A DNA stretch of 64,000 nt from Terramyces sp. JEL0728 (taxonomy: Eukaryota > Chytridiomycota > Chytridiomycetes > Rhizophydiales > Terramycetaceae), in NCBI GenBank assembly GCA_027603945.1, contig JADIIU010000001.1:1-64000 (forward strand). The letters run 5' to 3'. Below the pieces are notes generated by a model, which ran no database searches, was not told where the DNA came from, and was given only the letters and a program-made list of their open reading frames with translations. Positions 13,755-31,956 of the stretch are shown piece by piece (position 1 is the stretch's first letter; every line of letters starts with the position of its first letter). Both the position numbers and the translations under genes were made by a program.

Positions 13755-14479
13755 TTAAAATCCATACTTGTTTCTGACTGTTTTTTTCAATGCATTTCTC
13801 TCTGCCTTCTGGTCTGCCATTTTATCACTCTGCTGCATTGCTTGAGCTGCCAAGCTTAGTATATGATTGTTCCTATCCTTTCCAATAGGATTCGAGATAT
13901 TCAAAGTAAGATTAAGAGTACCTTGAACGAATCGGACGCCTTAAACTCTGATTTTGTGAATTGGCGTTGTTGGGCAAGTCTATACACATCGCCAATCTGT
14001 TCTTTTTGCGATATAGTTGTGACTTTAACAGGTCCTGATTTCCTTTCTGGAATTGCTACTACTTGTTCCACTTTTACTTTCTTTTTAATATGAAAAGTCT
14101 GCAAATTGTACTGTCCACTCGGCCTCTCAGGTCCCGCTTGTGGTCCTAAATCTTCCTGTTCTTGTCCAGCTAGTATTAATGATGAATTACGAAGTGTAAA
14201 AAAACAATCCAATTCTACGCTCTCCTCCTTTTTCGCTGGTTTCTTGTCCAACTTTCCAAAAGATATATTTTTACTAGTTGTTGACTGTGCTTTTGGTATT
14301 GATGCTAATAAATTCGGTCCAAGTTCTGGTTTGAGGTTTGATTCGTGCTGTTCCAATTCTACTGCCGGCACAAAAATCTTGCGCTTTCCCTTTTCTGCTG
14401 TCTTGATTTCCTCTTTCAGAGGTTTCCTTATCTCTTCCTCGTCATCTGAAGATGCATAGTATTGCGATAGTTTATTCAT
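13755..14479 (-). CDS. PRCC homologue (splicing/mitotic checkpoint-associated nuclear protein)
   Basis: The N-terminus MNKLSQYYASSDDEEE matches the PRCC start (a YASSDES-type segment). The C-terminus HILSLAAQAM...VRNKYGF matches the family's closing block, which ends in KYGF. The middle is Pro/Lys-rich and variable, as usual. PRCC is a nuclear protein linked to pre-mRNA splicing. One intron is required. A 20-nt version (13902-13921) keeps SDSFK-NISNPIGKDRNNH but ends in TTG rather than AG; a canonical alternative uses a 44-nt intron (13878-13921) ending GGAAAG. Both keep frame (234 or 226 residues). Start chosen at 14479 because the conserved N-terminus begins there. Confidence 0.75.
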
Positions 14480-14534
14480 TTCAAATGCGAAAAGATCAGG
14501 AAAAAGTTGATTCACCCAAATCCATTATATTATT

Positions 14535-15389
14535 TCAATTGATATTCGTCAGCTTCACAGTATTAATCAGATGCTCTTGTGTTGCATGTTGCTGCATTTT
14601 TGGTTTCTTGGCAAGAGTAAATTCCTTTAGCATCTTCAAAATATAGACCAGCCCCAAGGAGTGGATACATATACAATAGATACTGCCCAAATTATATAGT
14701 ATTCCCGTGTTGGTAGCTACGGCAGAGTCAGTCAATATAAATACCAGGTACAATGCAATGGCTGACCAGTCAAGAGACACAATAGCAATATTCAATTTCG
14801 TGATAACCTTGAATTTTTGGAGCATTTCCGACGAAAGTTCCTGGCGAAATTTTGTTTGTTTAAATTTGAATACTACTACAGCAAGAGAAATATGCTGTAC
14901 ATTGTCATAGATGACTGACAGAACTGAAAATATTGCTATGCATAAATTCCCGCTCTTTCGCAACACTGAATATCCAGTTATCATGTAGCTCAAGGTTAAC
15001 AATAGCGGAAGCAAAAAGACTGCAATCACAATATTCCTGAAAATATCCAGCCTTTGCTTTGTCAGCTGTGGAATTAGTGTAATGTAAATTCGCAATATCT
15101 CTATATCAATTAATAGTATAAAGAAAATTTCAATGTTGGAAATCAGCCCGATAGCTGTCATATAGAGATTATCAGTTGCTGCTCCCGGAGCTGTGCTGTA
15201 GTGCATTAGGTGATAGAATATCAAACAACTTTGACAAACGTTGGTTGCAATCACAATATTGAATATCCACCGCAATGAACCAACAGTAGACTTTCTGAAG
15301 TTTATCACGTACAACATATAAAAGGAAATTCCAAATATTACGACTGCTACTATTTTGAAGCATGTATTGGTGATTGAAAAGCTGTCCAT
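14535..15389 (-). CDS. Seven-helix array protein, copy 1 (intronless)
   Basis: First member of a 16-unit tandem family of unrecognised multi-pass membrane proteins; 284 residues with seven predicted hydrophobic helices. Family landmarks: NVCQSCLIFYH (helix 2), DIEILRIYITLIPQLT after helix 3, VIYDNVQH and FKQTKFRQELS (end of helix 5), LDWSAIALYL (helix 6) and CICIHSLGLVYILKMLKEF (helix 7). No intron at the position used in copies 2-11. The sequence is most like copy 16 at the other end of the array (shared KMLK-[ED]-F and KKPK). It lacks the Q-K-T-x-I-I tail motif. Function unknown. Confidence 0.8.
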   Translation of the reverse strand: MDSFSITNTCFKIVAVVIFGISFYMLYVINFRKSTVGSLRWIFNIVIATNVCQSCLIFYHLMHYSTAPGAATDNLYMTAIGLISNIEIFFILLIDIEILRIYITLIPQLTKQRLDIFRNIVIAVFLLPLLLTLSYMITGYSVLRKSGNLCIAIFSVLSVIYDNVQHISLAVVVFKFKQTKFRQELSSEMLQKFKVITKLNIAIVSLDWSAIALYLVFILTDSAVATNTGILYNLGSIYCICIHSLGLVYILKMLKEFTLAKKPKMQQHATQEHLINTVKLTNIN

Positions 15390-15703
15390 TGTATTGACGT
15401 AGGCAAAAATATGACCTCCAAGATAAAAACAAGCAGTACCTCCTGAACATGCTTGGATGACAGTGTCTGTGGTTTGGATATACTTTTATCTCCAATAGTC
15501 AACTGAGGTTGCAGTTACAATATTTTGCACACTGTCGAAATCACTACAAAAGGAGAAAAGATTGCATTAGAATAATTGCTAACAAGAAGCGAATCTGAAG
15601 ATAACAGAGACCCTAATAGAATTCGTATTCCAAACAAGGCTGTATTAATGATCGAAAAAATAGTGGACATTTAACGCAAGAAGCAATATATAATATTTTT
15701 GCT
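15390..15703. other. Spacer between array copies 1 and 2
   Basis: 314 bp of AT-rich spacer. No remnant of another copy recognised. Confidence 0.4.
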
Positions 15704-16616
15704 TTATACAAGTCGCGTGCTCTTTTCATGAACATTGCTACTTGCACTTTTAATTTTCAAGTCGGCTAGTTTCTTTAATGGCACATTCGGTTCAGAATCA
15801 GTCTCATTCTTGGATAATGAAAGATCTTTGAGCTTCATCAAACAAAATATCAGCCCTAATGTGTGAATGCATATGCAAAGACATCCAGCCAAGTTATAGT
15901 AGTATGGAAAGTATGATTTGTCAGTTGTGAAGGTAAAGTAAACGTGAAAAGCGATTGCCTAAATTAGCTGGAATTACCGTCCAGTCTACAAGAAGCATGC
16001 CTGCAAGATACACAGATAGCTTTTTAAACTGATTGATTGTATTCGTAGATAATTCATTTCCGCACTTTCCATCTTTGAATTTGTATATGGCAGTTAATAA
16101 ATAAATGTTTTGGATATTATCTAGGATGACGGCGAGTATAGCAAAGAACATTACACATACATTTCCTGCAACTACTATTGATGGATTTGCGGTAAATATA
16201 CCAGCTATACGCGTGCTGAATGGGAATAATACGTAAAGCGCAATCAGAAATATCCTAATTCGGTATAGTATGCGCTTGGTGATAGTCGGGTTGAGAACTG
16301 CGAATATTGTCATCACTTCAATATCTGCCAGGAGCACGAGCAGTATTTGTAAATCCGACACGGTAGAAATAACATTGTAAGTGTTGTACCAAGTAGAAAC
16401 ATATATACTGTAAGCAATGTAAAATGAGACTATCCAGTAGACGATTATCAATGACTGGATGATATTAATCCATAGAATAAAACTTGACATTTTCCGGAAT
16501 GAATGCACATACTTTCCCCGATACACTATAATAAAGTAATATATTGAAATTAGACCTAATGAAACTGTGAATACTGAAAACAGGCTGTCGAGGATAATAT
16601 ACACCAAGAGATACAT
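15704..16616 (-). CDS. Seven-helix array protein, copy 2
   Basis: 297 residues from two exons, with a 19-nt intron at 15959-15977 placed in phase 0 after DWT (DWT|AIAFHVYF). Landmarks: INIIQSLIIVYW, DIEVMTIFAVLNPTIT, LDNIQNIYLLTAIYKFKD, ELSTNTINQFKKL, CICIHTLGLIFCLMKLKDLSLSKNE. The tail has VPLKKLADLK and ends HEKSTRLV, a variant of the family tail motif. Unspliced, the protein would lose helix 7. Membrane protein of unknown function. Confidence 0.85.
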
Positions 16617-16722
16617 TTGCTATGTGGCAAAATACACAATGAGATACAATGAAATTTAGTTGAATTGGAGCACACTAATAACAGACGTTGAGGCTTAGAT
16701 TTGTACACTAAAGAAATTCATT

Positions 16723-17639
16723 TCAGATGGTAATTATTTGCGTTTGCTGATCATGAATATTGGTTTTCGCAGCTTCCGAATGCATGTCAATTAGTTTCCG
16801 CAAAGGAACGTTCTGCTCTGTAGGTTCATTTGGGGCCAATGTCAGCTCTTTCAGTTTAATCAAACAGTAAATCATGCCCAGCGTATGAACGCAGATACAC
16901 AATGAGCCGGCTAGATTGAAATAGTATGGATAGAATGAAATATCGGCTGTAAATGTAAAATACATGTAAAATGCAATTCCCTATCATCAGCTATTTGTAC
17001 CGTCCAGTCAATCAAAATCATTGCAACAAATAAACCCCCCAATTCTTTGAATTTAATTATAGTCTTTTCTGGCAGTTCACTTTGATATTTGGACCCTTTG
17101 AATTCGTAAACCGTGAAAAGTAGATAGATGTTTTGTAAGTTATCGTAGATGGCTGCCAGCATTGCGAATACCATTGTGCATACGTTTCCAACGATAGTCA
17201 TCCAATCTTGACTTATGATTACTGAGGCTGCTCGTGAACAGCATGGAAAAAGGATATACGCGGCAATAATTCCATATTTCAACATTGCTAATTTGCTGCT
17301 CGATAAGTTTGTATTTAATACCGAGAATATCCTTAGTATTTCTATATCTGCTATTAGAACTAACAGTATTTGCAAATCAGAGACTGCAAACAGAGTAACA
17401 TTTACGTATATCCAAGTAGCATAATACACATTGAGATTGATATAGTACATGAGGATCCAGTATAAAATATTAAGTGTTTGGAGTATATTTATACAAATCA
17501 CAAGAATTGACAGTCTCCATATTGATCTGACATGTTTTGATTCATAGACGCTAATCAAAAAGAACACTGAGAATCCTCCCATAACTGTAGTAAAGATTGA
17601 AAACATGGAATCGAGAATGATGTACATCAAAGGAACCAT
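16723..17639 (-). CDS. Seven-helix array protein, copy 3
   Basis: 298 residues, intron 16981-17000 (20 nt) after DWT. The start at 17639 (MVPLMYIILD) was chosen over an in-frame ATG at 17696 because family members begin a few residues before helix 1. Landmarks: INILQTLNILYW, DIEILRIFSVLNTNLS, IYDNLQNIYLLFTVYEFKGSK, ELPEKTIIKFKEL, CICVHTLGMIYCLIKLKELTL. Tail: VPLRKLIDMH, then QQTQIITI at the C-terminus. Function unknown. Confidence 0.86.
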
Positions 17640-17777
17640 TATCGAATTTACGCAAGAAATTTCCAACAATGAAATTGTTACCCATTGAAAATTCATCGGT
17701 TATGTACAGAACTTTTAGAAAATCGCTAAATTAAAGATTAGGTATCGCATGCTGTTTATTGAGTAGATTGGCGCATA

Positions 17778-18671
17778 CTAGTTGTTTATAATCCTTGTCT
17801 GTTCTGGAGCCGGGTTTGATTCCTTTGAATTTGCCAGGAGCATAACCGGCGGAGAGCTAGGGTTTATTGTATATTCATTCTGCAAAAGCGTCATCTCTTT
17901 GAATTTAATCAAGCAGGCGATAATGCCAATGGAATGCATATAAATGCATATACAGCAAGTAATATTCAGATATTCGTTTAGCAAGGAATAAGGCAAGAAA
18001 GTGTAATATATGCTGGTAGCAAGCCCCTAAAATAAAAATTGAAATACCAACCAATCAATGACAACTAAAAGAGCGATATAGACAGCGACTGTATTGAATA
18101 ATAAAGATAGTTTCTTGGCATTATTCTGTTGTAGTTTGCTCTTTTTGAAATAGTATACTTTTATCACTAGCGAGATGTTTTGAATATTGTCATACACTAT
18201 TGCTCCCAACGCAAAGAAATTCAGACTATAGTTGCTAATCAGTGCAAGTACTCGCGAGTAGTGAATGTATTTGACCATGCGGGTTGTGAATGGCAATGCA
18301 ACAAAGAATACAATAATCGCGATCCGTATCTGATAAACCAACTTGACTCTGATTTTTGATATTAATACCGAGAATATAACTAATATTTCCAAGTCTGACA
18401 TTACTATCAATAGTAATTGTATATCTGCGGCAACACCAATTATTTCCCGCACAGCAATTACACTGGAACAAAGATTGTCACTTGTATCACATATAAACAG
18501 CCAATACAATATGAATAGCGTTTGTAATATGTTGATTACCAGAATGAGAATGAATGATTTTTGAAACGACTTTACTGTATGTCGTACTTTGGATGATATA
18601 AAGTAAACTGATAATCCAGCAAGGGTAATTATTGCTATTGCAAATGCAATTTGCAGAATTAGGTACACCAT
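17778..18671 (-). CDS. Seven-helix array protein, copy 4
   Basis: 290 residues, intron 18027-18047 (21 nt) after DWL. The intron is U-rich and lacks the CTAA/TTAA branch-like motif of its neighbours, but the frame is restored only by removing it (DWL|GLATSIYYTF). Landmarks: INILQTLFILYW, DLEILVIFSVLISKI, VYDNIQNISLVIKVYYFKKSK, CICIYMHSIGIIACLIKFKEMTLLQNE. Ends EQTRIINN. The post-helix-3 segment is less conserved than in other copies. Confidence 0.83.
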
Positions 18672-18791
18672 AGGCGTATAGTTGAGAATCGGAAACTTTC
18701 TTTGACGCGTTCGTACAGCTAGCAGGTTCCATTCATATGTGATCGAATCAATAAGTTGGATGTGCCGAAAATTCCCAATTAATTTATTAAG

Positions 18792-19684
18792 TCATAGAAC
18801 GATCATCGTATCCTGGTCTTGCACAGATTTCATATCTGCAATATCAATCAACCGCTTTTCCTGGACAGAAGGCACTGTCTCCTGTTTGGACAGTGTAACT
18901 TCTTTTAGCTTGATTAAACAGGAAAGCAATCCAAGCGCATGGATAAAGACACACATGGCGCATGCAAGGTTGTAGTACTGTATATATCTGGAAACATCTT
19001 TCGACAAATTGTAATAGACACTGGACGCGATTCCCTAGTTCAAAAAAGAATTACAGACCAATCAACTAGTACTAGTAAAATAAAATAAATAGTCAATTCC
19101 TGGAATTTGCATATCAAATTGGAAGATAATTCGCTTTGTTGTTTGGATTCTTTGAACCTGTAGATGGCATATACCAGATAGAAATTTTGAAAATTGTCAT
19201 AAATCATGGAAAAGAATGCGTATACTCCAATACTGATATTGTTGAATGTGTCGTACCAATCAGAGTTGAATGTGAAGCTGATTATTCTCGCGCTAAAAGG
19301 AATCATGAATACGAGCGCTGCAAATAGCTTGCACCGTCTGATCATCTTTGTATTGATTTTCGGATTCAACACTGAATAAATGTTCAATATTTCCAAGTCT
19401 GTTAATACAATTAATAAGAGTTGGATATCGGCGACAACACAGAGAGATTGGCCAGCAGCATAGATCGTCGAATCACATAATTCATCGCTAATATAACAAA
19501 TCAGTAGCCAATAGAGACTACATATTGATTGCAGTATGCTGATGGATATGATGATTATAAATGAATTTCTAAATGATTTGACTGTTTTTGGTAAATTGAC
19601 TACCAAGTGATAGATAGCTAGCGCTCCTAGCAACACAGAGAGTGTCGAGAATCCTACATCTACTACAATATATTTTTCAATCAT
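18792..19684 (-). CDS. Seven-helix array protein, copy 5
   Basis: 290 residues, intron 19035-19054 (20 nt) after DWS. Start set at 19684 (MIEKYIVVDVGFS); an in-frame ATG nine codons upstream is possible. Landmarks: ISILQSICSLYW, DLEILNIYSVLNPKIN, MIYDNFQNFYLVYAIYRFKESK, ELSSNLICKFQEL, CVFIHALGLLSCLIKLKEVTLSKQE. The tail has EKRLIDIADMK and ends QDTMIVL. Function unknown. Confidence 0.85.
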
Positions 19685-19781
19685 TCTAAAAAGTAAACAA
19701 TGCACATCCATGGCCCCACATATAGAAGGTATATGTGTAATGCAGATTTATTATTTTAATGAAATTCGTCCGGCTGATTAA

Positions 19782-20704
19782 TCAAGGTCTATTGTTCATT
19801 TCCGCGCAAATGATTGCAGTAGGTTGGTTATGCATTGATGCTATATTTGGCAATTTCAAATCCGCCAATTTCTTTAATCTCTCACTATTATCGGTATTTT
19901 CATCCGTTCCCGAGAGTGAAAGTTCAGTAAGCTTCAGCAAGCAGACAATCATGCCTAATATATGTATTGATTCGCATTGTGTGCTGGCTAAATTAAAGTA
20001 TTTTGCGTATATGGATACAGATATTGTCGCGTACAAGTTTAACAAGACACCCTTGGTTATTCAAAAGCTACCGTCCAGTCAATTACAATCATTAATACAA
20101 TATACACTACCAGCTCTCTGAACTTTGCCACTGTGCTATACGATAGGGGGCTCTGTAGCTTTGATTGTTTGAATTGGTAAATGGCATACAGTAACCCGAA
20201 ATTCTGAACATTATCGTACAAAACGCCAAACATTGCGTAAACTAGAATACACATATTGCTAATCACTGCCATTCTTTCTTGGTATACAAAGAAACTCAAC
20301 ACTTTTGTGCTGAATGGGAACAGCAGGTATAAAATCAAAACAACGTATCTGAAAATTACCAATCTCTTGCGAGTGAGTTTAGGATACAGCACTGAAAAAG
20401 TAAACAGCACTTCAATATCTGCTAACAAGATCAGCACTAGCTGTATTTCTGAAATAATATTCAATAGTTGGTATTCTAATTCCGATGATGCTTCAAACAT
20501 TGCTTCATTCGCGTAATACATAATGATCCATATTAATATTGTGATTGTTTGTAGTATATTAAAGCAAAGTATAAAGCCTGTCGTCTTTTGGAATGATTTT
20601 ACATATTTTCCTATCAAAATTGTGTATAGGAAATATATTGAGAGTGTACCTGTTGAAGCAGCAACGACCGCAAACAGGGCATCCAGTAAAATGTATTCAA
20701 TCAT
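19782..20704 (-). CDS. Seven-helix array protein, copy 6
   Basis: 300 residues, intron 20052-20071 (20 nt) after DWT. Start at 20704 (MIEYILLDALF), with an alternative ATG ten codons upstream. Landmarks: FNILQTITILIW, DIEVLFTFSVLYPKLT, LYDNVQNFGLLYAIYQFKQSK, PLSYSTVAKFREL, ESIHILGMIVCLLKLTELSLSG. The tail has ERLKKLADLK and NQPTAIICAE. Helix 7 has CESIH instead of CICIH. Confidence 0.84.
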
Positions 20705-21049
20705 GAAATGGAGTTTGGCGAATATCGATGACATTTTGTATCGACAATGACGGTGGTAGTCTCATTGTTTGACAGCAAAATCCAGAATCAATCCTTGCGA
20801 AATCCAATGGCATTTATAAAAATCAGTCATATTACATTTCAGTTTATTGTGCCAGTGAAAAGCCCTTTATTTGCAGTTGGAACTTGTGCCCAAGATTGGT
20901 AAAGTGGTTAGATCCCACAAACGTATGCAAATTTCATAACTCTTTGTTATTTTTGGGAATAGTTTACTACTTTAATTTATTATTCGAATCAGAGATTCCC
21001 GGCACTAGAACCCAATTAAAGAGAGCTCCACTGTCTGTATAATCACAAA
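20705..21049. other. Spacer between array copies 6 and 7
   Basis: About 345 bp. No pseudogene remnant is obvious. Confidence 0.4.
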
Positions 21050-21950
21050 TTAAGGACGCACAATAATTTGTGTTTTTTGGTTCTGTTTATCAACCACAGG
21101 ATTTTCTTTTACAAGATCTACTAGTCTTTTTAAGTGCACACTCGGCTGAGGACTCTGATTCTCTTCCAGCGAAACATCTTTTAGTTTGACTAGACAAAAA
21201 ATCATGCCGATAGTATGTGCCGAAATGCAATAGCCGTAATACTCGTAAAATGAATCATTGGATGAATAGATCCAGTATGAATAAAATAACACACCCTGGT
21301 TTAGAAAAGATTACAATCCAATCAATTGCAATCATTGCAGCAAAGTATAGTGCCAACTCCTTAAACTTGTATATAATTTGCATTGATAACTGATTCTGAA
21401 ATTTGGTTTGTTTCAGCATGTAGATGGCATAGAGAAGGTAGAAATTTTGACAGTTGTCATAAATCACTATAAACGCGGCAGAAACTAGCATTAATATATT
21501 ACTGGTTTCCAGTAGTCCAGATTCCATTAATACTATAGCTGTTAATCTAACTGAGAGCGGTCCTAGTGTAAATAATACTATTGATAGATTTCTGAACAAG
21601 TACAGCTTGGCAGGAGTCAATGCTGGATACAATACTGAATAAATAAGCAATACTTCTATTCCTGATATCAATATTAAGACCAGCTGTAGTTCAGTTATCA
21701 GATTAATTGCTTCAAACACATAATACTCTGTCTGGTGATACAAATCATAATTTAGGTATTCCGATAATATCCGAAATAATAATAGTGCTGATTGTATAAT
21801 GTTTGCTAACAGTACTGTTGCTGACAGGTATATGACAGTTCGAACGTATCTGCCCCAATTGACGATATACATAAAATACATTGAGCCGAAACCTAACATC
21901 GCAGCGAGAAGAGAGAACAGTGTGTCCAGAATATAATATGTAGGAATCAT
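21050..21950 (-). CDS. Seven-helix array protein, copy 7
   Basis: 293 residues, intron 21296-21314 (19 nt) after DWI. Landmarks: ANIIQSALLLFRILS, GIEVLLIYSVLYPALT (the first Asp of the usual D-[IL]-E is replaced by Gly), IYDNCQNFYLLYAIYMLKQTK, QLSMQIIYKFKEL, CISAHTIGMIFCLVKLKDVSLEEN. The tail has VHLKRLVDL and ends QKTQIIVRP. Function unknown. Confidence 0.84.
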
Positions 21951-21979
21951 TTATTAAAATATTTTTTCATAATCGTCAT

Positions 21980-22880
21980 TTACTCTGCAGTGACAACTCT
22001 CGCGAGATTAGTTTTGGGAATAATTTCCGTTGGAGTCTCCAGGGCTGTTGAAACTTGATTGATAATCTTTGGTTTTAAGCTTGTTTTTGACACTGTCAAT
22101 TCCTTTAGTTTGATCAAGAAGAATGTCATGAGAATGCAATGCAGCACTATACAGATTGCGCTGGCCATAGAAGAGTATAGCGTATATGCTGTTACCTTTC
22201 TTGACTGGTAATACAGGTTAAATCCGAGTCCCTGGATTAAAATCATTTACCATCCAATCAAATACAATCATGGCAACGATATTCACCACCAGGATTTTCA
22301 CTTGACCAAGCACATTTGTTGTTAGTGTGTTTCTAGATTTAACCATTTTAAACTGGTAGATTTTGTAGAGTAAATAGAAATTCTGTGTGTTGTCATAGAT
22401 TACCCCACAAAACGCATAGACCAGTGCAGATATATCACTTATCTTGAACAGCCAACTTTGGTCAAGCATATATCCCACTATCCTGAACGGAAATGGAACG
22501 AGAAAATACACTAGCAACCACGCAATTTTGAAAATCAAAAGTCTCTTTGTCGTAATATTAGAATCCAATACTGAAAATATCTGTAAAACCTCTACATCCG
22601 CAATGAAAACCAGAACCATTTGGATATGCGAAATCACCGTAATTGCTTGATAAACGAAATATTTTGTTTGAGTGTAGAAATTGTAGTTGATGTAAATTGC
22701 TACAATCCAATATAATATAAATAGAGATTGTAAAATATTGCATACTAGGATTGTTAGGGATACGCTATTGAATGATTTTATGTACTTGCCGCTGTGAATA
22801 ATTGGTATCAAGTAGCCTGTAAATATCAAGACGATGAAAATTACAATGGAATATAGAACGTCTAATGCAAGGTAGGACAT
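21980..22880 (-). CDS. Seven-helix array protein, copy 8
   Basis: 293 residues, intron 22232-22250 (19 nt) after DWM. Landmarks: CNILQSLFILYW, DVEVLQIFSVLDSNIT, IYDNTQNFYLLYKIYQFKMVK, TLTTNVLGQVKIL, CIVLHCILMTFFLIKLKELTVSK. It is the most divergent copy in helix 7 and the tail, ending PKTNLARVVTAE without a clear Q-K-T-x-I-I. It lies 29 bp from copy 7. Confidence 0.83.
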
Positions 22881-23256
22881 TGTGAGAAAGTAGAAATATT
22901 GCTTTTGGACAATGTGTGGTTTCTATTGTTAACATTACAATTTTGACAACAATGTGGTTGTTATGCAAGAACAATTTCCTTGCATTGATGGCGATAACAC
23001 CTGGGACGTGCAATACTACAACAGGGAATTGCTTCTAGATCCATAACTTTCAAGGTTTGAAAAGCAATGTGGCAAGAGCCTATTCTGCAATACAATAATG
23101 ATATTTTGATAAATTTTTGTTTATTCTAACTCTGCATGATTTGAGTAGGCTATTGAGAAATGATGAGGCTATTTTAAATGTACAATGCCGCCATTGTATT
23201 CTGCAACAATATACCGACCAATGGCAACTGCCTGAATACGGTAATTTTTTCAATGG
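22881..23256. other. Spacer between array copies 8 and 9
   Basis: 376 bp. I see no coding remnant or repeat. Confidence 0.4.
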
Positions 23257-24176
23257 TTAGTGCTTTATTATATCAGTCTTTACGTGCTGGGCAGACTTTA
23301 CTCCTCTGGCACTGCTATTGCCAATGTCTACCAGTCGCTTGATAGGTGCACTAGGTTCGCTCTCCACTTCATTTTGCGATAAGGTCAATTCTTTCAACTG
23401 CATTAGACAGTAAATCATTCCGAGAATATGTGCGCACACCAATATTGAACAACCAATATTGTAATAGTTCAGTGTATATGACGTATCGCTGGATATATTG
23501 AAATGTATATTCATTATTAATCCCTAATTTAAATCAAGAATACCATCCAATCCATTATAATCATGCCTATTATATAGAAAACTAGTCCTTTGAATTTCAT
23601 TAATGTCTTCACTGATAACTCATTTTGATATTTTGCTTCTCGAAATTGATAGATACTGTACAACAAGTAAAAGCTCTGCAGATTGTCGTAGATTGCTCCT
23701 AATATTGCGAATAATCCTATACATAAACTCCCAATTAGCTGATGTAGTTTAGATGTTGTAAAGTACGATGAGAGCCTTGCTATGAGACAGAATGTGAAGA
23801 ATACGACTGCAAAAGCTCTGAATTTGACCAAGTTCCTTCTGGTAATCGTTGGATTTAGTACAGAGAATATAAATAGCACTTCTATATCCGACCACGCTAT
23901 TAGTCCTAGCTGTATATCACATATTATATTCTGGATAGTATTGGAGTAATACCAGCTGTGTTCCCACAGCGTTGCATCGATATAATATATGAGTAACCAG
24001 TATAGCAACGCAAGACACTGAAGGATATTGAAACAGAGAATGATGCTGAATGCCTTTTTAAATGATCTAACTGCATTTCGGAAATTAATTGCAATAAAAT
24101 AGTATGCCGATATTATCCCAATGCTTAGTGTAATAACTGAATACAACGAGTCGAGAATGACACTTGGTGTACTCAT
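23257..24176 (-). CDS. Seven-helix array protein, copy 9
   Basis: 299 residues, intron 23524-23543 (20 nt) after DWM. Start at 24176 (MSTPSVILDSLYS) fits the family better than an upstream ATG at 24221. Landmarks: FNILQCLALLYW, DIEVLFIFSVLNPTIT, IYDNLQSFYLLYSIYQFREAK, ELSVKTLMKFKGL, LVCAHILGMIYCLMQLKELTLSQNE. The tail has APIKRLVDIG and ends VKTDIIKH. Function unknown. Confidence 0.85.
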
Positions 24177-24320
24177 TGCAACTCGTACGATTTTAACAAA
24201 GAACTTTCCGTGACGTTGCACCTAGTGGAATACGTAATCCCGAACTAAAGTAGAAATTACATCCATAGCAAGGCTAATAGTAGTATATGATAGATTGTTG
24301 GTTGTATGTTGCTTTACAAG

Positions 24321-25297
24321 CTAGTTCCTGGAAATAATCGCGGTCTTTTGATATTGGTTTGACACACTGTTTGCCGCACCGCTATTCTTCAAATCAAGCA
24401 GCATTTGCATTGGAACAGTTTGCGCAGGAATACTTTTGTCAAAGTCAGCATTTTGAGACAGTGACAATTCCTTTAGTTTAATCAGACAGTATATCATCCC
24501 GAGAGAGTGTACGCAGATGCAGATCATGCTGGCATAGTCATAGTAGAGCTTATATACATAATTGTAATAGTCTACTTCAAAGATATAGATTGGTGTGATA
24601 GTGTAATACACAAAGAACCCTATTCCCTGAATTAATAGAAAATTACTATCCAATCAATTACTAGCATTCCAATTAAATATAATATCAACTCTTTGAACCG
24701 CTTTATCATACTAACAGATAGTTTGCTGTCTATCCTGGATTCTTTGAATTGGTAAATTGTGTACAGCAAGTAAAAGCTCTGTCCATTGTCGTATATCACA
24801 CCAAACAGGGCAAATATCCCTATTGCAATATCGCTTATTACGTTTACCCAGTCAATAATAATAAATGTTGCAATTGCCCTGGTCAACAACGGAAATAAAA
24901 TAAATAGTGTTACTGTGGTATTTCGGAAAACATCCAATCTTTTGTGCGTTATTTTGTGATTAAATACCGAAAATATCCGCAATATTTCTATATCTGAGAG
25001 CACGATCAGTAGCAACTGTATATCTGCAATAAAATTCAATATTGCCAACGCGGCAAATCCAGTTACCACGAATACATCGTAGCTGATTAAAAATACGAGA
25101 AGCCTGTACATAAGAGTCAAAGACTGCAATAAATTTGTGCATAGTATGAATACAAAAGACTTTTGAAATGTTTTAACCGATCTTCCAAAGTTGATTAGGG
25201 ATAATAAATAGATTGACATTACCCCAATTGACGCAGCTGCTACTGCAAACACAATATTTAGTATTACATATGGAGCCACCATCTTTCCCTTGGGCAA
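24321..25297 (-). CDS. Seven-helix array protein, copy 10
   Basis: 318 residues from the first ATG (313 from the second), intron 24627-24646 (20 nt) after DWI. Very close to copy 11: both share SFQKSF-x-FILCTN and KITHKRLDVFRN/KITRKKLDIFRN. The loop before helix 7 is expanded by about 10 residues (YNYVYKLYYDYAS against YNYAS), which looks like a small internal duplication. Tail: VPMQMLLDLK, then YQKTAIISRN. Function unknown. Confidence 0.86.
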
Positions 25298-25485
25298 GAT
25301 TTATTCAACGCTGTAGAGATGACGTATTCCAATATTTGAGATTCAAAGGCAACATTGATACCTGTGTTCTCCAATTTCCGATCTTGGCAAAGGCTTTGTC
25401 AGCTGCTCATAAAGCTCAAAACGAATTGAATCAGGACAAAGTATATTAGCACTGAAAATGAACAAGTGGTATATTCTTGCGCAAT

Positions 25486-26413
25486 CTAAGCAATAGATAT
25501 TATCGCAGTCTTTTGGTTTTGAAATGACATTGAGGTTTTTGAAGGTCCACTATTCTTCAAATCCACCAACCTCTGCATATGTACACTTTCGTCCAAGTCA
25601 GCATTTTGAGACAGCGACAATTCCTTTAGTTTGATCAGACAGTATATCATCCCGAGAGAGTGTATGCAGATGCAGATCATGCTGGCATAATTATAGTATT
25701 CCACCTCAAACGAATAGTCTGGCGTGATAGTGTAATACACATAGAATCCTATCCCCTGAATTAACAATTGTTACCATCCAGTCGACGGCAAGCATCGCCA
25801 TGATATACAATATCATCTCTTTGAACCTTGATAACATCCCGAGAGATAATTTGCTATCTATTTTGGATTCTTTGAACTGGTAAACTGCGTACAGCAAGTA
25901 AAAGCTCTGCACATTATCGTATATCACCACAAACAGCGCATATAGCCCTATAGAAAGATTACTGATTAGAGTAAGCCATCCTACTTTTTTTACAAATGTT
26001 ACAATTATCCTGGATAATAATGGGCACGCAGTAAATGTTATTACCGCAGCATTTCGAAATATATCCAACTTTTTGCGTGTAATTTTATGATTTAATACTG
26101 AATAAATGCTCAGTATTTCGATATTTGTGAGCACAATTAGTACTAACTGTATATCTGCAATGAAATCCAGCACAGTAGTCGCCTCGGACCAAGAATCGAG
26201 ATACACGTTATTGTTCAAATAGCACGCAACGAGTATGTACAAAAGAGCCAGCGATTGCAAAAAGTTTGTGCAGAGTATAAATATAAATGATTTTTGAAAT
26301 GATTTCACTGCTCTGCCGAAATTGATCCTCCGTAACAAATACACTGACATTATTCCGATTGCTGCCGATGCTACCGCAAAGACTATATCTGCTATCGCAA
26401 ACGAATCAATCAT
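25486..26413 (-). CDS. Seven-helix array protein, copy 11
   Basis: 302 residues, intron 25756-25774 (19 nt) after DWM. Landmarks: TNFLQSLALLYI, NIEILSIYSVLNHKIT, IYDNVQSFYLLYAVYQFKESK, KLSLGMLSRFKEM, CICIHSLGMIYCLIKLKELSLSQN. The tail has VHMQRLVDLK and ends QKTAIISIA. It is the nearest paralogue of copy 10 and probably a recent tandem duplicate. Confidence 0.86.
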
Positions 26414-26900
26414 TCGCTTTTATTTTGGGCAAGAATTTCATTGTTTGCGCGACATTGTTCAATATCGCAAACACTAGAGACGAATAAATGTAAAATAGAC
26501 TGGTGCAGAAAACATTGAAAGTTGTCGTAAAGCACTGCCGAAATCGCATAGAGCCCAACGCAGATATTTGCAGCTACCAAGAACCAAGTAAAAATTGTGC
26601 TGATGATTCTTGCTGCCAAAGGCAACAGGATGAATGATACGATCGCGACATTGCGAAATATTTCAAGATTTCTATGGGTGATTTTTGAATTCAGCACTGA
26701 ATATACTTTTAATATCGGTTAGCACAATCAACAACAGCTGTACATTTGACAACAGACTAATTACATTCTGTGTCTGGGAAGCAATGACCGTGTAGAACTC
26801 GTTGTCCAGATAATACAGTAATAATAGGCCGAAATGGGTGTATCCGATAGTTGCGTAATAATGTGCAATATAGTATATTAGATGTTGAATGGATCAACAG
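26410..26900 (-). pseudogene. Degenerate seven-helix array copy 12
   Basis: Remnant with recognisable helix 3 to helix 5 only: YYLDNEFYTVIASQ, LLLIVLTDI, then VYSVLNSKITHRNLEIFRN, and VLYDNFQ. The frame breaks between LTDI and VYSVLN; alignment to neighbours suggests a small deletion that is not a multiple of three. Helices 1-2 are missing upstream, and the sequence after VLYDNFQ drifts into unrelated residues before a stop. The region between copies 11 and 13 is the only place in the array where a unit has decayed this far. Confidence 0.85.
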
Positions 26901-26930
26901 TAAACGAAAACAGCAAGTTGGAAATGGAGA

Positions 26931-27821
26931 TTACTTTGGGTTGATAATTTCAGTTTTTTGATAGGATATAGATTGTTCTGGAGTTACCAAGTCAACCAAC
27001 TTTTGTATCTGGACATTCTCAACAACAGTCTCACACTGTGCAAACGTTAGTTCTTTAAGAGTGACGAGACATAAAATCCCGATTTGCGAATGGAAGCATA
27101 TACAAAGCATGCTACAAATATTAATATATCCATAAGCAGAATCTGAATCAGCAGATGTGATTGAGTAGTAGATATATAACGCAAACCCAGACCAGTCAAT
27201 TACCAGGGTTGAGAGGATATAGAAACTTAAATTTCTAAATTTAGCTTTGGTCTGGCGAGACATTGTGTCTGATAATTGCGAAACTTTGAACCGGTAAATT
27301 GCAAACAATAAATACGCACTTTGAGCATTGTCGTATACTATCGCCAGCAGTGCAAAGATCCCTGTAGATATATTGGCAATAATATTCAGCATGTCATTGA
27401 AAATAAAAGCGCACAAGATGGTGGTTGATAGCGGAAACAAAGCAAAGTATGCTATTGTGACATTTTTGAAAATAATCAACTTTGCCAAAGTAATCTTTGG
27501 ATTCAATACTGAAAATATTTTCATTATTTCTACATCTGTGATTACTACTATAACCATTTGTATATTGGCAACGATTGCAAATGCAGAAACTATTTTGAAC
27601 CAAATGCTTCCAAAACTAAAATTCGAATCAAATACATTAATCCATATAGCTATACCAGCTGCTTGCAAGAAACTGAGTGCTAATATGAAAATTAATGATT
27701 TTTGAAATGAAATCACCAAACGACCAAACTTTGTGTACATGAATAGATATATTGATAGCAAGATAGAGATAATGGCCGCGATTGAAAGACATATTTGATA
27801 ATCAATGTTCGATTGTTGCAT
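26931..27821 (-). CDS. Seven-helix array protein, copy 13 (intronless)
   Basis: 296 residues with no intron. Helix 6 reads continuously as VIDWSGFALYIYYS where copies 2-11 carry an intron. Landmarks: DVEIMKIFSVLNPKIT, VYDNAQSAYLLFAIYRFKVSQ, CICFHSQIGILCLVTLKELTFAQCE. The tail has VQIQKLVDLV and ends YQKTEIINPK. Function unknown. Confidence 0.86.
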   Translation of the reverse strand: MQQSNIDYQICLSIAAIISILLSIYLFMYTKFGRLVISFQKSLIFILALSFLQAAGIAIWINVFDSNFSFGSIWFKIVSAFAIVANIQMVIVVITDVEIMKIFSVLNPKITLAKLIIFKNVTIAYFALFPLSTTILCAFIFNDMLNIIANISTGIFALLAIVYDNAQSAYLLFAIYRFKVSQLSDTMSRQTKAKFRNLSFYILSTLVIDWSGFALYIYYSITSADSDSAYGYINICSMLCICFHSQIGILCLVTLKELTFAQCETVVENVQIQKLVDLVTPEQSISYQKTEIINPK

Positions 27822-27845
27822 TACTAATTTTGTGGAAATTTTGCT

Positions 27846-28779
27846 TTAATCCTGAACAATAGGATCATTGTTAATTGTTGATCTGGGCATGACAATAGTT
27901 TTCTGCAGCGCAATGCTTTTATGTATTAGCAATTCGTCTACTGGTTGGTTGCTGACCACGGTCGCTGATCTACTTTCACACAGAGCCAAGGTTTTTAGTT
28001 GAAGCAAGCAATAAATCAAGCCAAGCGAGTGAATGCATACACAGAATATACAGCCAAGATTGTAATAATTATAAGCTAAAATGTTGTCTACACCAAAGTT
28101 TCCATAAACAAAAAAGGCAATTCCCTATTATTAGTAGAAACCGTACTATCCAATCCGAAAGAATCATCCCTACGTTGAAAATCATCAAATCTTTAAATTT
28201 TTCAGCCAGAATAGCCGATGGCTCATTGTTATTCTGTATAGTTTTGAAATTCTTTACTGCGAATATCAGGTAGTGGTTTTGGATATTGTCATAAATCACA
28301 CATGCAACTGAAAATACTGCGAGACAAATAGTGTTGAAGAACCAAAACCACTCGGCTAATATGAATATTGTCAGAAAGCTAGTTGTGAATGGAAATAGAA
28401 ATGCGACAATTAAACTAATGTTTCGGATACGATCAAGGTGTACATGAGTGATTTTTGGATTTAGCACTGAAAATATCCTCAATATCTCTAAATCTGCCCA
28501 AACTAATAGTCCTAATTGTGCGCTGCCTACGACGCTTATTCCGGTGAGCGTAATATTTGAAGTGTTGTCGTAGAAGCTCTGACTAATATATGAAACTATC
28601 GCCCAATAAATCATTAATAATCCTTGGATTATGTTACATATTAGAACTGTATTGAATAGTCTCTGATATAGCTTCACGCGCGCATTTAAATTCAGTGTGT
28701 ATAGCCAATATGCCGACTGTAGAGTAATCCAGAGTGATATGAGCGCGAATATTATATCTACTGCTAGTTGGTCCCCCAT
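27846..28779 (-). CDS. Seven-helix array protein, copy 14
   Basis: 303 residues. The intron at 28125-28146 (22 nt, ending ACTAATAATAG) is in the same phase-0 position after DWI as in copies 2-11. This intron has no stop in frame, so read-through gives a misleading frame-shifted tail; splicing yields DWI|GIAFFVYGNFG and helix 7 CVCIHSLGLIYCLLQLKTLAL. Landmarks: CNIIQGLLMIYW, DLEILRIFSVLNPKIT, IYDNIQNHYLIFAVKNFK. The tail has LQKTIVMPRS near the end. It lies 24 bp from copy 13. Confidence 0.86.
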
Positions 28780-28974
28780 TAGTAAAGTACGTCAGAATAT
28801 CGCGAAATTCAAAGAGAAAATATCCCATCTAATAATTATATTCAGTAATTCCAGAAAGGATTACATACCAGTCTTTCTTATATTTGGGCAGAATTTAATG
28901 TATTCATGATAGTCAGAAATGAAGCGATCGTGAAATTTAAATGGCCTGATATAAGCCAATACAAATATGCAATG

Positions 28975-29880
28975 TTATGCTGGACAGATCTGGCCAGAAG
29001 TGTTGATAATTATAGTTCTTTTTAAATGTATGCTCCATGTATCTGGAATTTTATCCAATTTTACGACACCTGATTCCGCAGTGGATTTCGTGTTGTCACC
29101 TTGAATAACTGCAAAGCTCTTTAGATGTAACAAACACTTGATCATCCCTAGCGAATGCGTGCAAACGGATACCATGCAGCCAAGGTTGAAATAATTGTAT
29201 TCGTAAGCATTGTAATAATAAATGTTTCCGCACAGATAAATGGCAATCCCCATTGCATCAGATAGAATCATGGCCATATTGTAATAAATCATTTCTAGAA
29301 ATTTTGTGTGTACTTTTACTGACAATTCATTCTTTAGTTGGATAGACTTAAATTTGAATACAGCGTAAATTAGAAATAAATTTTGAGAATTGTCGTACAG
29401 TACACAGAGAAATGCGAATATTCCAACACAGATGGTACTAATCAGATTCACCAAATCCGATGTTGTGAAAATACATACTGCACTGGTGCCGAATGGAAAT
29501 ATTATAAACGCAATCAGCATTACGTTCCTGAATTTGTTTAGCTTTGTATTCGTTATTCTTGGATCAAGTACTGAAAAAATTCGAATTATTTCAATATCCG
29601 TCATAATTATTAGAGTCAGTTGGGCTGTAGCAACTAAATTTAGAACTGCAGTGATGGTGTAAGAAAGAATCCAGTTATCTGGGTCAATGATACTGAACAC
29701 TAGCCAAGTTAGCATGAAGGGCGACTGTAAAATGTTTGTTAACAAAACAACATTGAATAGTATCTGGAAAGTTTGCACTTTGTTTCGGTAGTTGACGTGA
29801 TATATGAAAACTAACGATAGCGACAATATTGTAAGAGATAGAATGGAAAATGGGATTGCGAGTAGTGTATTCCTATTCAT
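28975..29880 (-). CDS. Seven-helix array protein, copy 15 (intronless)
   Basis: 301 residues, no intron; helix 6 reads through as SDAMGIAIYLCGN, with the usual DW changed to DA. Landmarks: TNILQSPFMLTW, DIEIIRIFSVLDPRIT, LYDNSQNLFLIYAVFKFKS, ELSVKVHTKFLEM, SVCTHSLGMIKCLLHLKSFAV. The tail has LKRTIIINTS near the end. Function unknown. Confidence 0.85.
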   Translation of the reverse strand: MNRNTLLAIPFSILSLTILSLSLVFIYHVNYRNKVQTFQILFNVVLLTNILQSPFMLTWLVFSIIDPDNWILSYTITAVLNLVATAQLTLIIMTDIEIIRIFSVLDPRITNTKLNKFRNVMLIAFIIFPFGTSAVCIFTTSDLVNLISTICVGIFAFLCVLYDNSQNLFLIYAVFKFKSIQLKNELSVKVHTKFLEMIYYNMAMILSDAMGIAIYLCGNIYYYNAYEYNYFNLGCMVSVCTHSLGMIKCLLHLKSFAVIQGDNTKSTAESGVVKLDKIPDTWSIHLKRTIIINTSGQICPA

Positions 29881-30112
29881 AGTGCGATAATTACAAGATT
29901 TTGTCCTATTGTTGCTATTTTTACTGGCGTGTCAAATAAGACATCAATGCGGACAATAGGCTCCATGAGCTGACGTGTTGGGATTACAGAAAGATGCGTG
30001 TAAAGTCATGTTTGTTCCGTGCAATGATATAACGTACGCTTCCGGATCCATCTCTACTTTGGAGTTATTCAAATGCAAAGTATGTTCAATCATTTTACAA
30101 TTATATTAGCAA

Positions 30113-31018
30113 CTACAACGACAGAATCTGTGTATCGCTCTGATTCGCTTCTGGGGGAGGTGGAGGATTTAGGATTTGTTGGGTGGTGTTTGCATCTTCA
30201 ACTACCTTTGCTCTTCGCTTTGGCTTCTTTGACACTGCGAAATCTTTGAGCATCTTCAGGATAACTACGAGACCAAGTGAATGAAGACAGATGCAGAAAA
30301 TACTGGCAAAGTTTGAATAAGTGCCCAAATGGCTCTCTGCGGATTTCCCAGGAGAGATAATAAATATTGCGTAAAATGCAATTGCAGTCCAATCTAGGAG
30401 AACTATAGCAATATTGTACTTTGTGATTTCTTTAAATTTCACCATCATCTCTTCGGTAAGTTCGTTGTTGCATTTTACATTTTTGAACTTGTAGATTAAT
30501 GTTGCTAAATAAATATTTTGAAGGTTATCATACACAACCACAAATAATGAAAATAGCGCGATGCATACGTTTCCAATCATCGCAGTGAATGTGGATCGGA
30601 GGGCCAAAAACAGTACGTGCGATGTAAATGGAAACAAGATAAATATTCCCACTACTGCATTCCGGAACATGTCAATCTTTCTGTTTGTGATTCTGCTATT
30701 CAACACAGAGTAAATACGCAAGATTTCAATGTCGATAAGGATAATGAAGCAAATTTCGATATTTGAAATGAGACTTACAGTTTCAGAGAAATAGAACATG
30801 GTGGACAAGTTGCTGTCAAAGTAAGACATGAAGAATATGTACAGAAACATGCAGCATTGGATAAGATTGATTCCGAGAACAATATTAAATCTCTTTTTGA
30901 ATGACTTTACGTGTGCTTTTCTGTAGTTGAGTTTGTACATGAGATAACTCGAAGCCCCAGCAATTCCAATATTCACCATATTAAACGCTATATCCAAGAT
31001 ATTTTTTGTAGTAATCAT
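30113..31018 (-). CDS. Seven-helix array protein, copy 16 (intronless)
   Basis: 301 residues from the ATG at 31018 (MITTKNILDIAF); an in-frame ATG lies 24 codons further upstream. Landmarks: INLIQCCMFLYI, DIEILRIYSVLNSRIT, VYDNLQNIYLATLIYKFKN, ELTEEMMVKFKEI, LDWTAIAFYAIF, CICLHSLGLVVILKMLKDFAVSKKPK. The long tail has a seven-Pro run with one acidic break (PPPPPE) and ends SDTQILSL. It resembles copy 1 more than its physical neighbours. It is the rightmost member. Confidence 0.85.
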   Translation of the reverse strand: MITTKNILDIAFNMVNIGIAGASSYLMYKLNYRKAHVKSFKKRFNIVLGINLIQCCMFLYIFFMSYFDSNLSTMFYFSETVSLISNIEICFIILIDIEILRIYSVLNSRITNRKIDMFRNAVVGIFILFPFTSHVLFLALRSTFTAMIGNVCIALFSLFVVVYDNLQNIYLATLIYKFKNVKCNNELTEEMMVKFKEITKYNIAIVLLDWTAIAFYAIFIISPGKSAESHLGTYSNFASIFCICLHSLGLVVILKMLKDFAVSKKPKRRAKVVEDANTTQQILNPPPPPEANQSDTQILSL

Positions 31019-31956
31019 TTTGATACTGGAAAAGATGAAAAGGTGTTTGACGTAAGCTCCCAAAGCACACATTCCCAATATGGATATCATGACATCATAT
31101 CATTCTCTTCAAATAAAAGATTCATCTCGCGATTCCCGATTTCATCTCGATAGTCCTAATTTACTTTTCAAACCTACCAGCTTGGTTGTTAGCGCTCAAT
31201 GTGTAGGACAGACCTCTTCCGGGTTTAAAATTAGCCTCGTGAATAATTGCTGGAATTAGGTGTGATTGTGGCAGCTAGTGGTCAGTTGCAGTCTGGATGT
31301 AGCTTTAGGTTGCGGATATCAATAATATGATTTGAAATGCCCCGCGATAATCGACATTTGCTGAATAGACAGCACAACAATTTAGTCAGGAGAATTTCTA
31401 CCCTCAATGGCACCGTTTTGGAGCACTGTCGGATGTCAATTCCCGATGCAATTCAAATCAATGGTGAGAGTAGCGTTTACCAAAATTAGATCTGGTTTGA
31501 ATCACACCACTGCCAGTTATCAGAGTGTCTGTGCACTACACGACCTCCTATCCTATTCGCCACAGTCGTTTGGTAATTTGGCGCGGAGCACTTTTTCCCA
31601 GTCCACGTTGCGTGTGGACGGATCCGAAACAGAAAACTGGGAACCAATGCAGATTGTCAAAAACACCGCATTACAGTTTGGTACCTTGTATATGGCAGCT
31701 CAGCTACGTCTTTGATTGTCTTTATCCGTTAAATGCGGATCCATTTGCAGCCGCGCTTGTTATTTATCCAAATCGGATTTCAAACCTCGTGGCTTATCGC
31801 ATGGTGACTTTCCGTTTTCAAGGACTCAGACACGATCGTACCAGACACTCTGCGGAAGAAGCGTCCAAACCATGCGCTCACCACATGAAGTTTATTCCGT
31901 TCGCAAAGGACCTGCATATAAATATCTCGTGAATCCCTACATACTCTATAAACTAA
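31019..31956. other. 0.9-kb region between the array and the first aspartic protease
   Basis: Divergent promoter region. Overlapping open frames at about 31407-32048 on the plus strand have no family resemblance and overlap one another, so I do not call them genes. Confidence 0.5.
31917..31924 (+). promoter_or_regulatory. Possible TATA box of aspartic protease 1
   Basis: TATAAATA about 33 bp upstream of the protease ATG at 31957. Position and sequence fit a TATA element with a short 5' leader. This is motif evidence only. Confidence 0.35.

Follow-up and report, generated by a model that had tools for sequence, protein, structure and literature searches.

The described systems that come closest to the locus reported here are receptors with the fold of G-protein-coupled receptors (GPCRs). 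A census of fungal GPCRs groups these proteins into 17 classes by Pfam domain, counts pheromone and nutrient receptors among the known ones, and suggests that DUF6534 proteins may form an additional group (PMC12842992). The TAS2R receptors carry the motif H7.49-S7.50-x-x-L7.53 in their seventh transmembrane helix (TM7; PMC7582848). Here we analyze the first 64 kb (the window, 64,000 nucleotides) of a 520 kb contig, C1, of Terramyces sp. JEL0728 (assembly of 15.0 Mb in 231 contigs), in which positions 14535-31018 are occupied by a tandem array of genes for a seven-helix membrane protein. We consider it likely that this array comprises 15 members of a large, sequence-novel family with the GPCR fold, most likely ordinary GPCRs for chemosensing.

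A previous interpretation made from the DNA letters alone (the sequence-only reading) had proposed 15 intact copies and a pseudogene on one strand, and open frames, spliced frames and a hidden Markov model (HMM) of the family all bear this out. The array runs on the minus strand throughout, with intergenic gaps of 24-376 bases and the degraded copy abutting copy 11. Four copies have a single open frame, and the other 11 require one GT-AG intron each. The spliced proteins have 284-313 residues, slightly shorter than the 290-318 first proposed. The genes are as follows.

Copy 1: 14535-15389, minus strand; open frame without intron, 284 residues; HMM E 1.9e-95; groups with HDV06_006666 of Boothiomyces in the tree.
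Copy 2: 15704-16616, minus strand; 297 residues, two exons, intron 15977-15959 (19 nt); spliced frame and family HMM.
Copy 3: 16723-17639, minus strand; 298 residues, two exons, intron 17000-16981 (20 nt).
Copy 4: 17778-18671, minus strand; 290 residues, two exons, intron 18047-18027 (21 nt).
Copy 5: 18792-19684, minus strand; 290 residues, two exons, intron 19054-19035 (20 nt).
Copy 6: 19782-20734, minus strand; 310 residues, two exons, intron 20071-20052 (20 nt).
Copy 7: 21050-21950, minus strand; 293 residues, two exons, intron 21314-21296 (19 nt).
Copy 8: 21980-22880, minus strand; 293 residues, two exons, intron 22250-22232 (19 nt).
Copy 9: 23257-24176, minus strand; 299 residues, two exons, intron 23543-23524 (20 nt).
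Copy 10: 24321-25282, minus strand; 313 residues, two exons, intron 24646-24627 (20 nt).
Copy 11: 25486-26413, minus strand; 302 residues, two exons, intron 25774-25756 (19 nt).
Pseudogene: 26413-26893, minus strand; two open-reading-frame pieces in different frames (102 and 73 codons; family-HMM E 1.7e-22 and 4.8e-7), the protein lacking both ends.
Copy 12: 26931-27821, minus strand; open frame without intron, 296 residues; family HMM.
Copy 13: 27846-28779, minus strand; 303 residues, two exons, intron 28146-28125 (22 nt).
Copy 14: 28975-29880, minus strand; no intron, 301 residues; D-A in place of the D-W motif.
Copy 15: 30113-31018, minus strand; no intron, 301 residues; 69% identical to HDV06_006662 of Boothiomyces; used for AlphaFold2 modeling. 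An in-frame ATG further upstream, at 31090, would lengthen the protein by 24 residues.

Pairwise identity among the 15 copies is 23-65%, with a median of 33% over the 105 pairs. Copy 15 used as a query retrieves the other 14 at E-values from 4e-22 to 2e-65, and chance likeness is therefore excluded. The landmarks named in the sequence-only reading recur in the alignment. First, the glutamine of helix 2 is present in 15 of 15 copies and its asparagine in 13, with Y-W in seven. Second, DNxQ of helix 5 occurs in all 15 and YDNxQ in 14. Third, the aspartate of helix 6 occurs in all copies (D-W in 14), as does the histidine of TM7, in the context H-[ST]-x-x-[LM] (S/T in 11, L/M at +4 in 13). Listed by helix, conserved sites are N51 (TM2), D/N96-x-E98 (TM3, close to its cytoplasmic end), Y163-D164-N165-x-Q167 (TM5), D209-W210 (TM6) and H246 (TM7); counting along the helices places conserved sites near class A positions 2.50, 3.49, 6.48 and 7.49. 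In 39 members drawn from the whole family, D209 and H246 are invariant, and D164, N165 and Q167 are kept in 36, 35 and 34, respectively. The TM3 motif, [DN]-x-E in most array copies, is mostly [DN]-x-[EQH] family-wide, and S/T follows the TM7 histidine in 17 of the 39.

The averaged hydrophobicity profile of the array has seven peaks, as had been anticipated, and basic residues are concentrated around the three predicted cytoplasmic loops (2.3-2.7 per copy, against 0.07-0.83 around the outer segments, four-residue flanks included). This bias of lysine and arginine toward intracellular loops 1-3 predicts that the N terminus lies outside and the C terminus inside. Insect OR/GR receptors have the inverted topology, with the N terminus inside, which the charge bias does not predict here. 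Residue conservation is also unevenly distributed: the cytoplasmic halves of the helices have a mean pair identity of 0.28 against 0.17 for the outer halves in the 39 members (p 7e-7), and of 0.41 against 0.31 in the array (p 0.008), in a Mann-Whitney test that treats columns as independent and leaves lipid exposure uncontrolled. With that caveat, such a pattern would be expected of receptors that share a common transducer and differ in their ligands.

The AlphaFold2 model of copy 15 consists of seven helices (4-32, 38-67, 71-106, 112-140, 143-182, 189-221 and 230-262), joined on the outside by short loops of 3, 2 and 8 residues. The modeled protein matches solved GPCRs over the whole bundle. 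TAS2R14 is the top structural row, with the TAS2R rows tied with class A rows (differences below 1 in Z), and the Ste2 pheromone receptor is also among the neighbors. Neither result that would have contradicted the sequence-only reading, a clear transporter or enzyme match or a model lacking seven helices, was obtained. At the level of predicted fold, the receptor reading is well supported. PAQR/ceramidase and PQ-loop proteins are not among the structural rows listed, which excludes nothing. A second model, of the distant member P0006, has a predicted local distance difference test score (pLDDT) of only 69.5. Microbial rhodopsins are among its structural rows, as are designed helical filaments at ranks 2 and 3, and the support that it lends the GPCR fold is therefore weak.

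By sequence, the family matches nothing named, in agreement with the earlier impression. We compared 24,736 Pfam-A models with the 15 array copies at E<=10 and with the 39 family-wide members at E<=1 (four proteins being in both sets), under HMMER filters that discard most matches above ~0.1. Only scattered, weak and unrelated matches were obtained, the best at E 0.0082 and mostly to one member each. Three outside proteins gave unrelated weak matches or none, NCBIfam gave no match for the 15 array copies, and two family profiles found no match among PDB sequences. In the hmmscan of the 15 and 39 members, none of the domains of the 17 published fungal classes was matched, as far as the portion of the class table covered extends, nor were the pheromone-receptor models, the TAS2R model PF05296 or the DUF6534 model PF20152. 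At E<=10 the TAS2R and DUF6534 models are also silent across the genome; the 14 control genomes for TAS2R and the controls for DUF6534 are equally silent, so that absence is proven for neither. The class A model 7tm_1, without a match in the 15 and 39 members, has 35 elsewhere in the genome. A comparison aimed at descent from class A was negative: hhalign values against 14 of the genome's own class A receptors were 0.4-1.9%. The best of these alignments (P 0.026) spans 31 columns around TM6, where the D-W of the family meets the class A tryptophan, and positive controls between distant branches within the family reached 99.3% and 96.4%.

These searches also bear on the idea that the proteins are seven-helix enzymes or transporters, such as a CREST/PAQR-type hydrolase or a SWEET/PQ-loop-like carrier, with the conserved D, N, Q and H as catalytic or substrate residues. 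The polar residues of TM5-TM7 are indeed among the most conserved of the family. However, no credible Pfam transporter or enzyme match was found, the structural matches shown are GPCRs, and an outer N terminus is predicted from the charge bias. CREST/PAQR-type zinc hydrolases use three histidines, and the family has one invariant histidine only. We regard an enzyme or transporter as improbable.

Several observations weigh against a GPCR assignment. No Pfam GPCR model matched any of the scanned members, and, with hhalign values as low as these, kinship in sequence with known GPCR families was not detected. The signatures of class A receptors, E/DRY in TM3 and NPxxY in TM7, are absent. The Foldseek E-values of the copy 15 model exceed 0.01, with no match below E 0.001. 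That model was built on a shallow alignment of 28 rows, 22 being exon pieces, and seven-helix bundles can score well without a common function. Acidic instead of basic residues prevail where the C-terminal tail of the array copies starts (K+R 1.15, D+E 3.36), whereas the two kinds are balanced family-wide (2.9 and 2.5). The conservation trend of the array is carried by TM3, TM5 and TM7, with TM1 and TM2 level and TM4 and TM6 reversed; family-wide, TM6 alone opposes it. Finally, microbial rhodopsins appear at Foldseek ranks 4, 16 and 48 of 50 rows, as well as among the P0006 rows, and share the seven helices, so that light receptors of this type have to be weighed. Their TM-scores are lower, 0.36-0.43 against up to 0.58. 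Microbial rhodopsins carry a Schiff-base lysine in the middle of TM7, and no lysine column of this kind exists in the 39 members: lysine occurs in more than five of them only at columns 255, 258 and 259, at the cytoplasmic end of TM7. A rhodopsin-like light receptor thus seems to us hardly credible. The family is best called GPCR-like and fits none of the fungal classes published so far; it may be a remote branch of class A, T or D.

The array is only part of the family. A six-frame search of the genome with copy 15 returned 74 matches, and five further members used as queries returned 74, 48, 48, 36 and 72. After merging, 96 loci with E<=1e-3 remain, spread over 27 contigs, of which loci approximately 75 are at E<=1e-6, a count based on rounded E-values in which the pseudogene is taken together with copy 11 and the weakest loci may not belong. 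Near-identical blocks of five members each were observed at C30:97193-101985 and C33:11159-15946, with one pair 98% identical; either a segment was duplicated recently, or the assembly contains two haplotypes of it. We built a quick tree, with several long branches and unsafe joins, of 54 full-length members of the genome and ten outside proteins. The included rows of C149, C116, C30, C156 and C163 each cluster by contig, as expected from local tandem duplication, which the rows of C25 do not all do; the C149 group also holds three Boothiomyces or Logan rows.

Within this tree the array is split. First, the outermost copies 1 and 15 group with HDV06_006666, HDV06_006662 and HDV06_006665 of Boothiomyces sp. 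JEL0866, all on one 56.8 kb contig, and with a Logan protein (six rows; support by the Shimodaira-Hasegawa-like approximate likelihood ratio test, SH-aLRT, of 95). HDV06_006666 is annotated publicly as a fusion with the apparent counterpart of the protein that flanks the array (13901-14515), and the locus therefore looks syntenic between the genera. Second, a clade of 15 rows (SH-aLRT 91) unites the 13 inner copies and two C31 genes, and none of the ten outside proteins falls into it. This suggests that the inner copies may be a Terramyces expansion, within an outside sampling limited by the search. Besides the window's own protein, the matches listed come from Terramyces, from Boothiomyces (B. 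macroporosus; strains JEL0866 and JEL0838), from the Logan proteins P0003 and P0014 and from the JGI protein P0018, a distribution that is a lower bound, as the protein searches rely on shared 5-residue words and were in part capped at 8000 candidates. P0018, on a JGI contig of 125,983 bases, is a distant relative (hhalign 96.9%) in which D-W-x-G of helix 6 and the tail pattern of TM7 are retained, with arginine in place of the otherwise invariant TM7 histidine. Judged from P0018, the family may reach beyond Terramycetaceae.

Selection could be estimated in two close pairs, dS being saturated in most others. The ratio of nonsynonymous to synonymous substitution (dN/dS) is 0.19 in the closest array pair, copies 10 and 11 (dN 0.21, dS 1.09), and 0.24 in the C31 pair; both pairs are under purifying selection. 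The idea of a tandem repeat that is selfish or in decay and does nothing for the cell, to which the one degraded copy might point, is very hard to reconcile with these ratios, with 15 of 16 copies intact at 23-65% identity, or with Boothiomyces relatives that have a conserved neighbor.

Three features go beyond the sequence-only reading: the genome-wide extent just described, a shared mini-intron and a motif in the C-terminal tail. The 11 array introns measure 19-22 nt, and each falls between two codons, immediately following D-W-x in helix 6. The two C31 genes have theirs at the same place as the inner copies, of which 12 and 14 have none. In total, 19 introns were fixed by reading frame and relatives (paralogs, a Boothiomyces protein and, for a G-alpha gene, its canonical sequence), namely 11 in the window at 15959-28146, two at locus L057 on C31, five at L074 (C20:95600-97000) and one in the window at 14190-14170; four are of 19 nt, eight of 20, four of 21 and three of 22. 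A scan of both window strands for GTA...YTRAY...YAG found 14 sites of 19 nt (2.4 in ten first-order resamples), 20 of 20 nt (2.0) and 10 of 21 nt (3.6). Among lengths from 23 to 60 nt, the next largest number was seven, at 48 nt (2.1 resampled). The genome thus seems to use spliceosomal introns of ~20 nt. Such introns are close to the lower limit known for eukaryotes, and our literature search found no report of such introns for chytrids.

One gene adjoins the array.

Flanking gene: 13901-14515; intron 14190-14170.

Comparison of this gene with the Boothiomyces protein implies a further 20 nt intron at 13921-13902 (minus strand) that ends in TG instead of AG, which may reflect a non-canonical site, an assembly error or a wrong guess. 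Public models seem to fuse family members with neighbors or with each other (P0004, P0009, P0010 and P0012). Besides the fusion of HDV06_006666 to the flanking gene, a family member from Terramyces seems to lie inside a protein named DCAF7, and Boothiomyces proteins of 531 and 540 residues are apparent fusions, of which P0010 looks like two members in one. An uncapped protein search whose query included the other three intronless array copies did not retrieve these as annotated proteins. Mini-introns and tight packing may be behind such fused or missing models.

As for the tail, T-x-[IVL]-[IVLM] occurs within the last 28 residues of 14 of the 15 array copies. In 2000 shuffles of the tails, the motif, which had been picked by eye from the tails before this test, occurred on average in 2.2 copies and at most in seven. 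Elsewhere it is found in two of two C31 genes, one of five on C163, neither of two on C156 and one of three Boothiomyces JEL0866 proteins, and it is therefore not general outside the kin of the array. The motif suggests that the array branch may have a common cytoplasmic partner.

Candidate transducers and other receptors were identified in the same genome, all counts being lower bounds. G-alpha genes are represented by 28 exon matches, which we grouped into approximately 12 genes, seven of them on C65, leaving three weak matches aside; the G-alpha genes look expanded. Class A receptors account for the 35 matches to 7tm_1 and class C receptors for 11, and the new family outnumbers both. Further class A groups lie on C17, C48, C57, C85, C2 and C56, several with internal stops or introns.

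G-alpha loci: C65:13519-15954 and C65:59944-66082; also C133, C49, C99 and C20; exon matches, grouped by us.
Class A GPCR cluster: C69:57423-65046 (L059); seven typical class A genes, Pfam 7tm_1 (E down to 1.2e-33), ERY/DRY-type motif by eye.

Judged by these matches, the host cell is equipped for G-protein signaling. We outline how the array proteins would work as receptors. The N terminus, of few residues, would lie outside, followed by seven helices with basic cytoplasmic loops and a short C-terminal tail. A small molecule would enter a pocket that lies between the helices in their divergent outer portions. The conserved polar core, made up of [DN]-x-E (end of TM3), Y-D-N-x-Q (TM5), D-W (TM6) and H-[ST]-x-x-[LM] (TM7), would switch. 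The cytoplasmic face would then activate one of the several G-alpha proteins of the genome, and T-x-[IVL]-[IVLM] in the tail would dock the common partner. Tandem duplication and divergence would have yielded a repertoire of specificities, plausibly for the zoospore. Ligand binding, coupling to G proteins, the chemosensory and zoospore roles, the switch mechanism and the tail partner are inferred.

The sequence-only reading had guessed a zoospore-forming host with a chemoreceptor or recognition repertoire. Terramyces sp. JEL0728, a soil chytrid of the Rhizophydiales, agrees with the former; of the latter, the novel seven-helix family stands, and the chemoreceptor role stays at the level of interpretation. 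A chemoreceptor repertoire fits the tandem clusters, the conserved cytoplasmic against variable outer helix halves and the many G-alpha genes. The same GPCR fold could instead serve mating, self/non-self recognition or nutrient sensing at the growth stage. Known fungal receptors for pheromones and nutrients, and Ste2 among the structural neighbors, speak for such uses, and nothing in the present data separates mating or nutrient uses from zoospore ones; the 54 full-length members spread over many contigs, however, seem to favor broad sensing over mating. We consider these other uses unlikely, albeit less so than the enzyme or transporter above. The family members are good candidates for sensors of the surroundings of the swimming spore. 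If they are GPCRs, at least 54 candidate receptors, recognizable by their signature, are encoded in the genome, a concrete gene list for studies of zoospore sensing. In open-licence PMC literature, we found no described receptor family behind chytrid zoospore chemotaxis, and no description of the array or of the family. The census sorts proteins into classes already known and pursued, among the unassigned seven-helix clusters, the largest one alone, DUF6534 (PMC12842992). A family such as the present one would therefore remain unassigned.

A bolder proposal, which we hold to be evenly balanced between right and wrong, is that of a separate GPCR class outside the 17 fungal ones and without traceable sequence descent from class A, which radiated in Terramycetaceae chytrids until it outnumbered the genome's receptors of class A and of class C. 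It would be a fungal counterpart of animal olfactory and taste repertoires, with expanded G-alpha wiring and a common docking motif in the tail, by which a swimming spore discriminates many chemicals.

Compared with known systems, the family relates to each in a different manner. First, the DUF6534 proteins, described in the census as machine-predicted GPCR candidates of Agaricomycotina (PMC12842992), are likewise a lineage-restricted fungal seven-helix family proposed to be GPCRs, but they belong to another phylum and their model has no match in the scanned members. Second, Ste2 (class D) is a structural neighbor, but without a pheromone-receptor Pfam match in the family. Third, the class A receptors of the same genome share seven helices and clustered genes, as in the seven on C69, together with, in our reading, a TM6 tryptophan and an acidic TM3 residue close to the cytoplasmic end, both in comparable places; they differ in the hhalign values, the E/DRY and NPxxY motifs and the 7tm_1 match. 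Fourth, TAS2R receptors (class T) differ by a sequence identity of 8-12% in six TAS2R rows and by the missing PF05296 match, but H-[ST]-x-x-[LM] in TM7 of the array resembles their H-S-x-x-L, in a comparison of positions that does not amount to residue-level equivalence. This likeness, together with TAS2R14 as top structural row of the model, is a lead that convergence may also explain. If the proteins are GPCRs, the family is an independent expansion of a receptor repertoire in a unicellular opisthokont, comparable with those of animal taste and smell.

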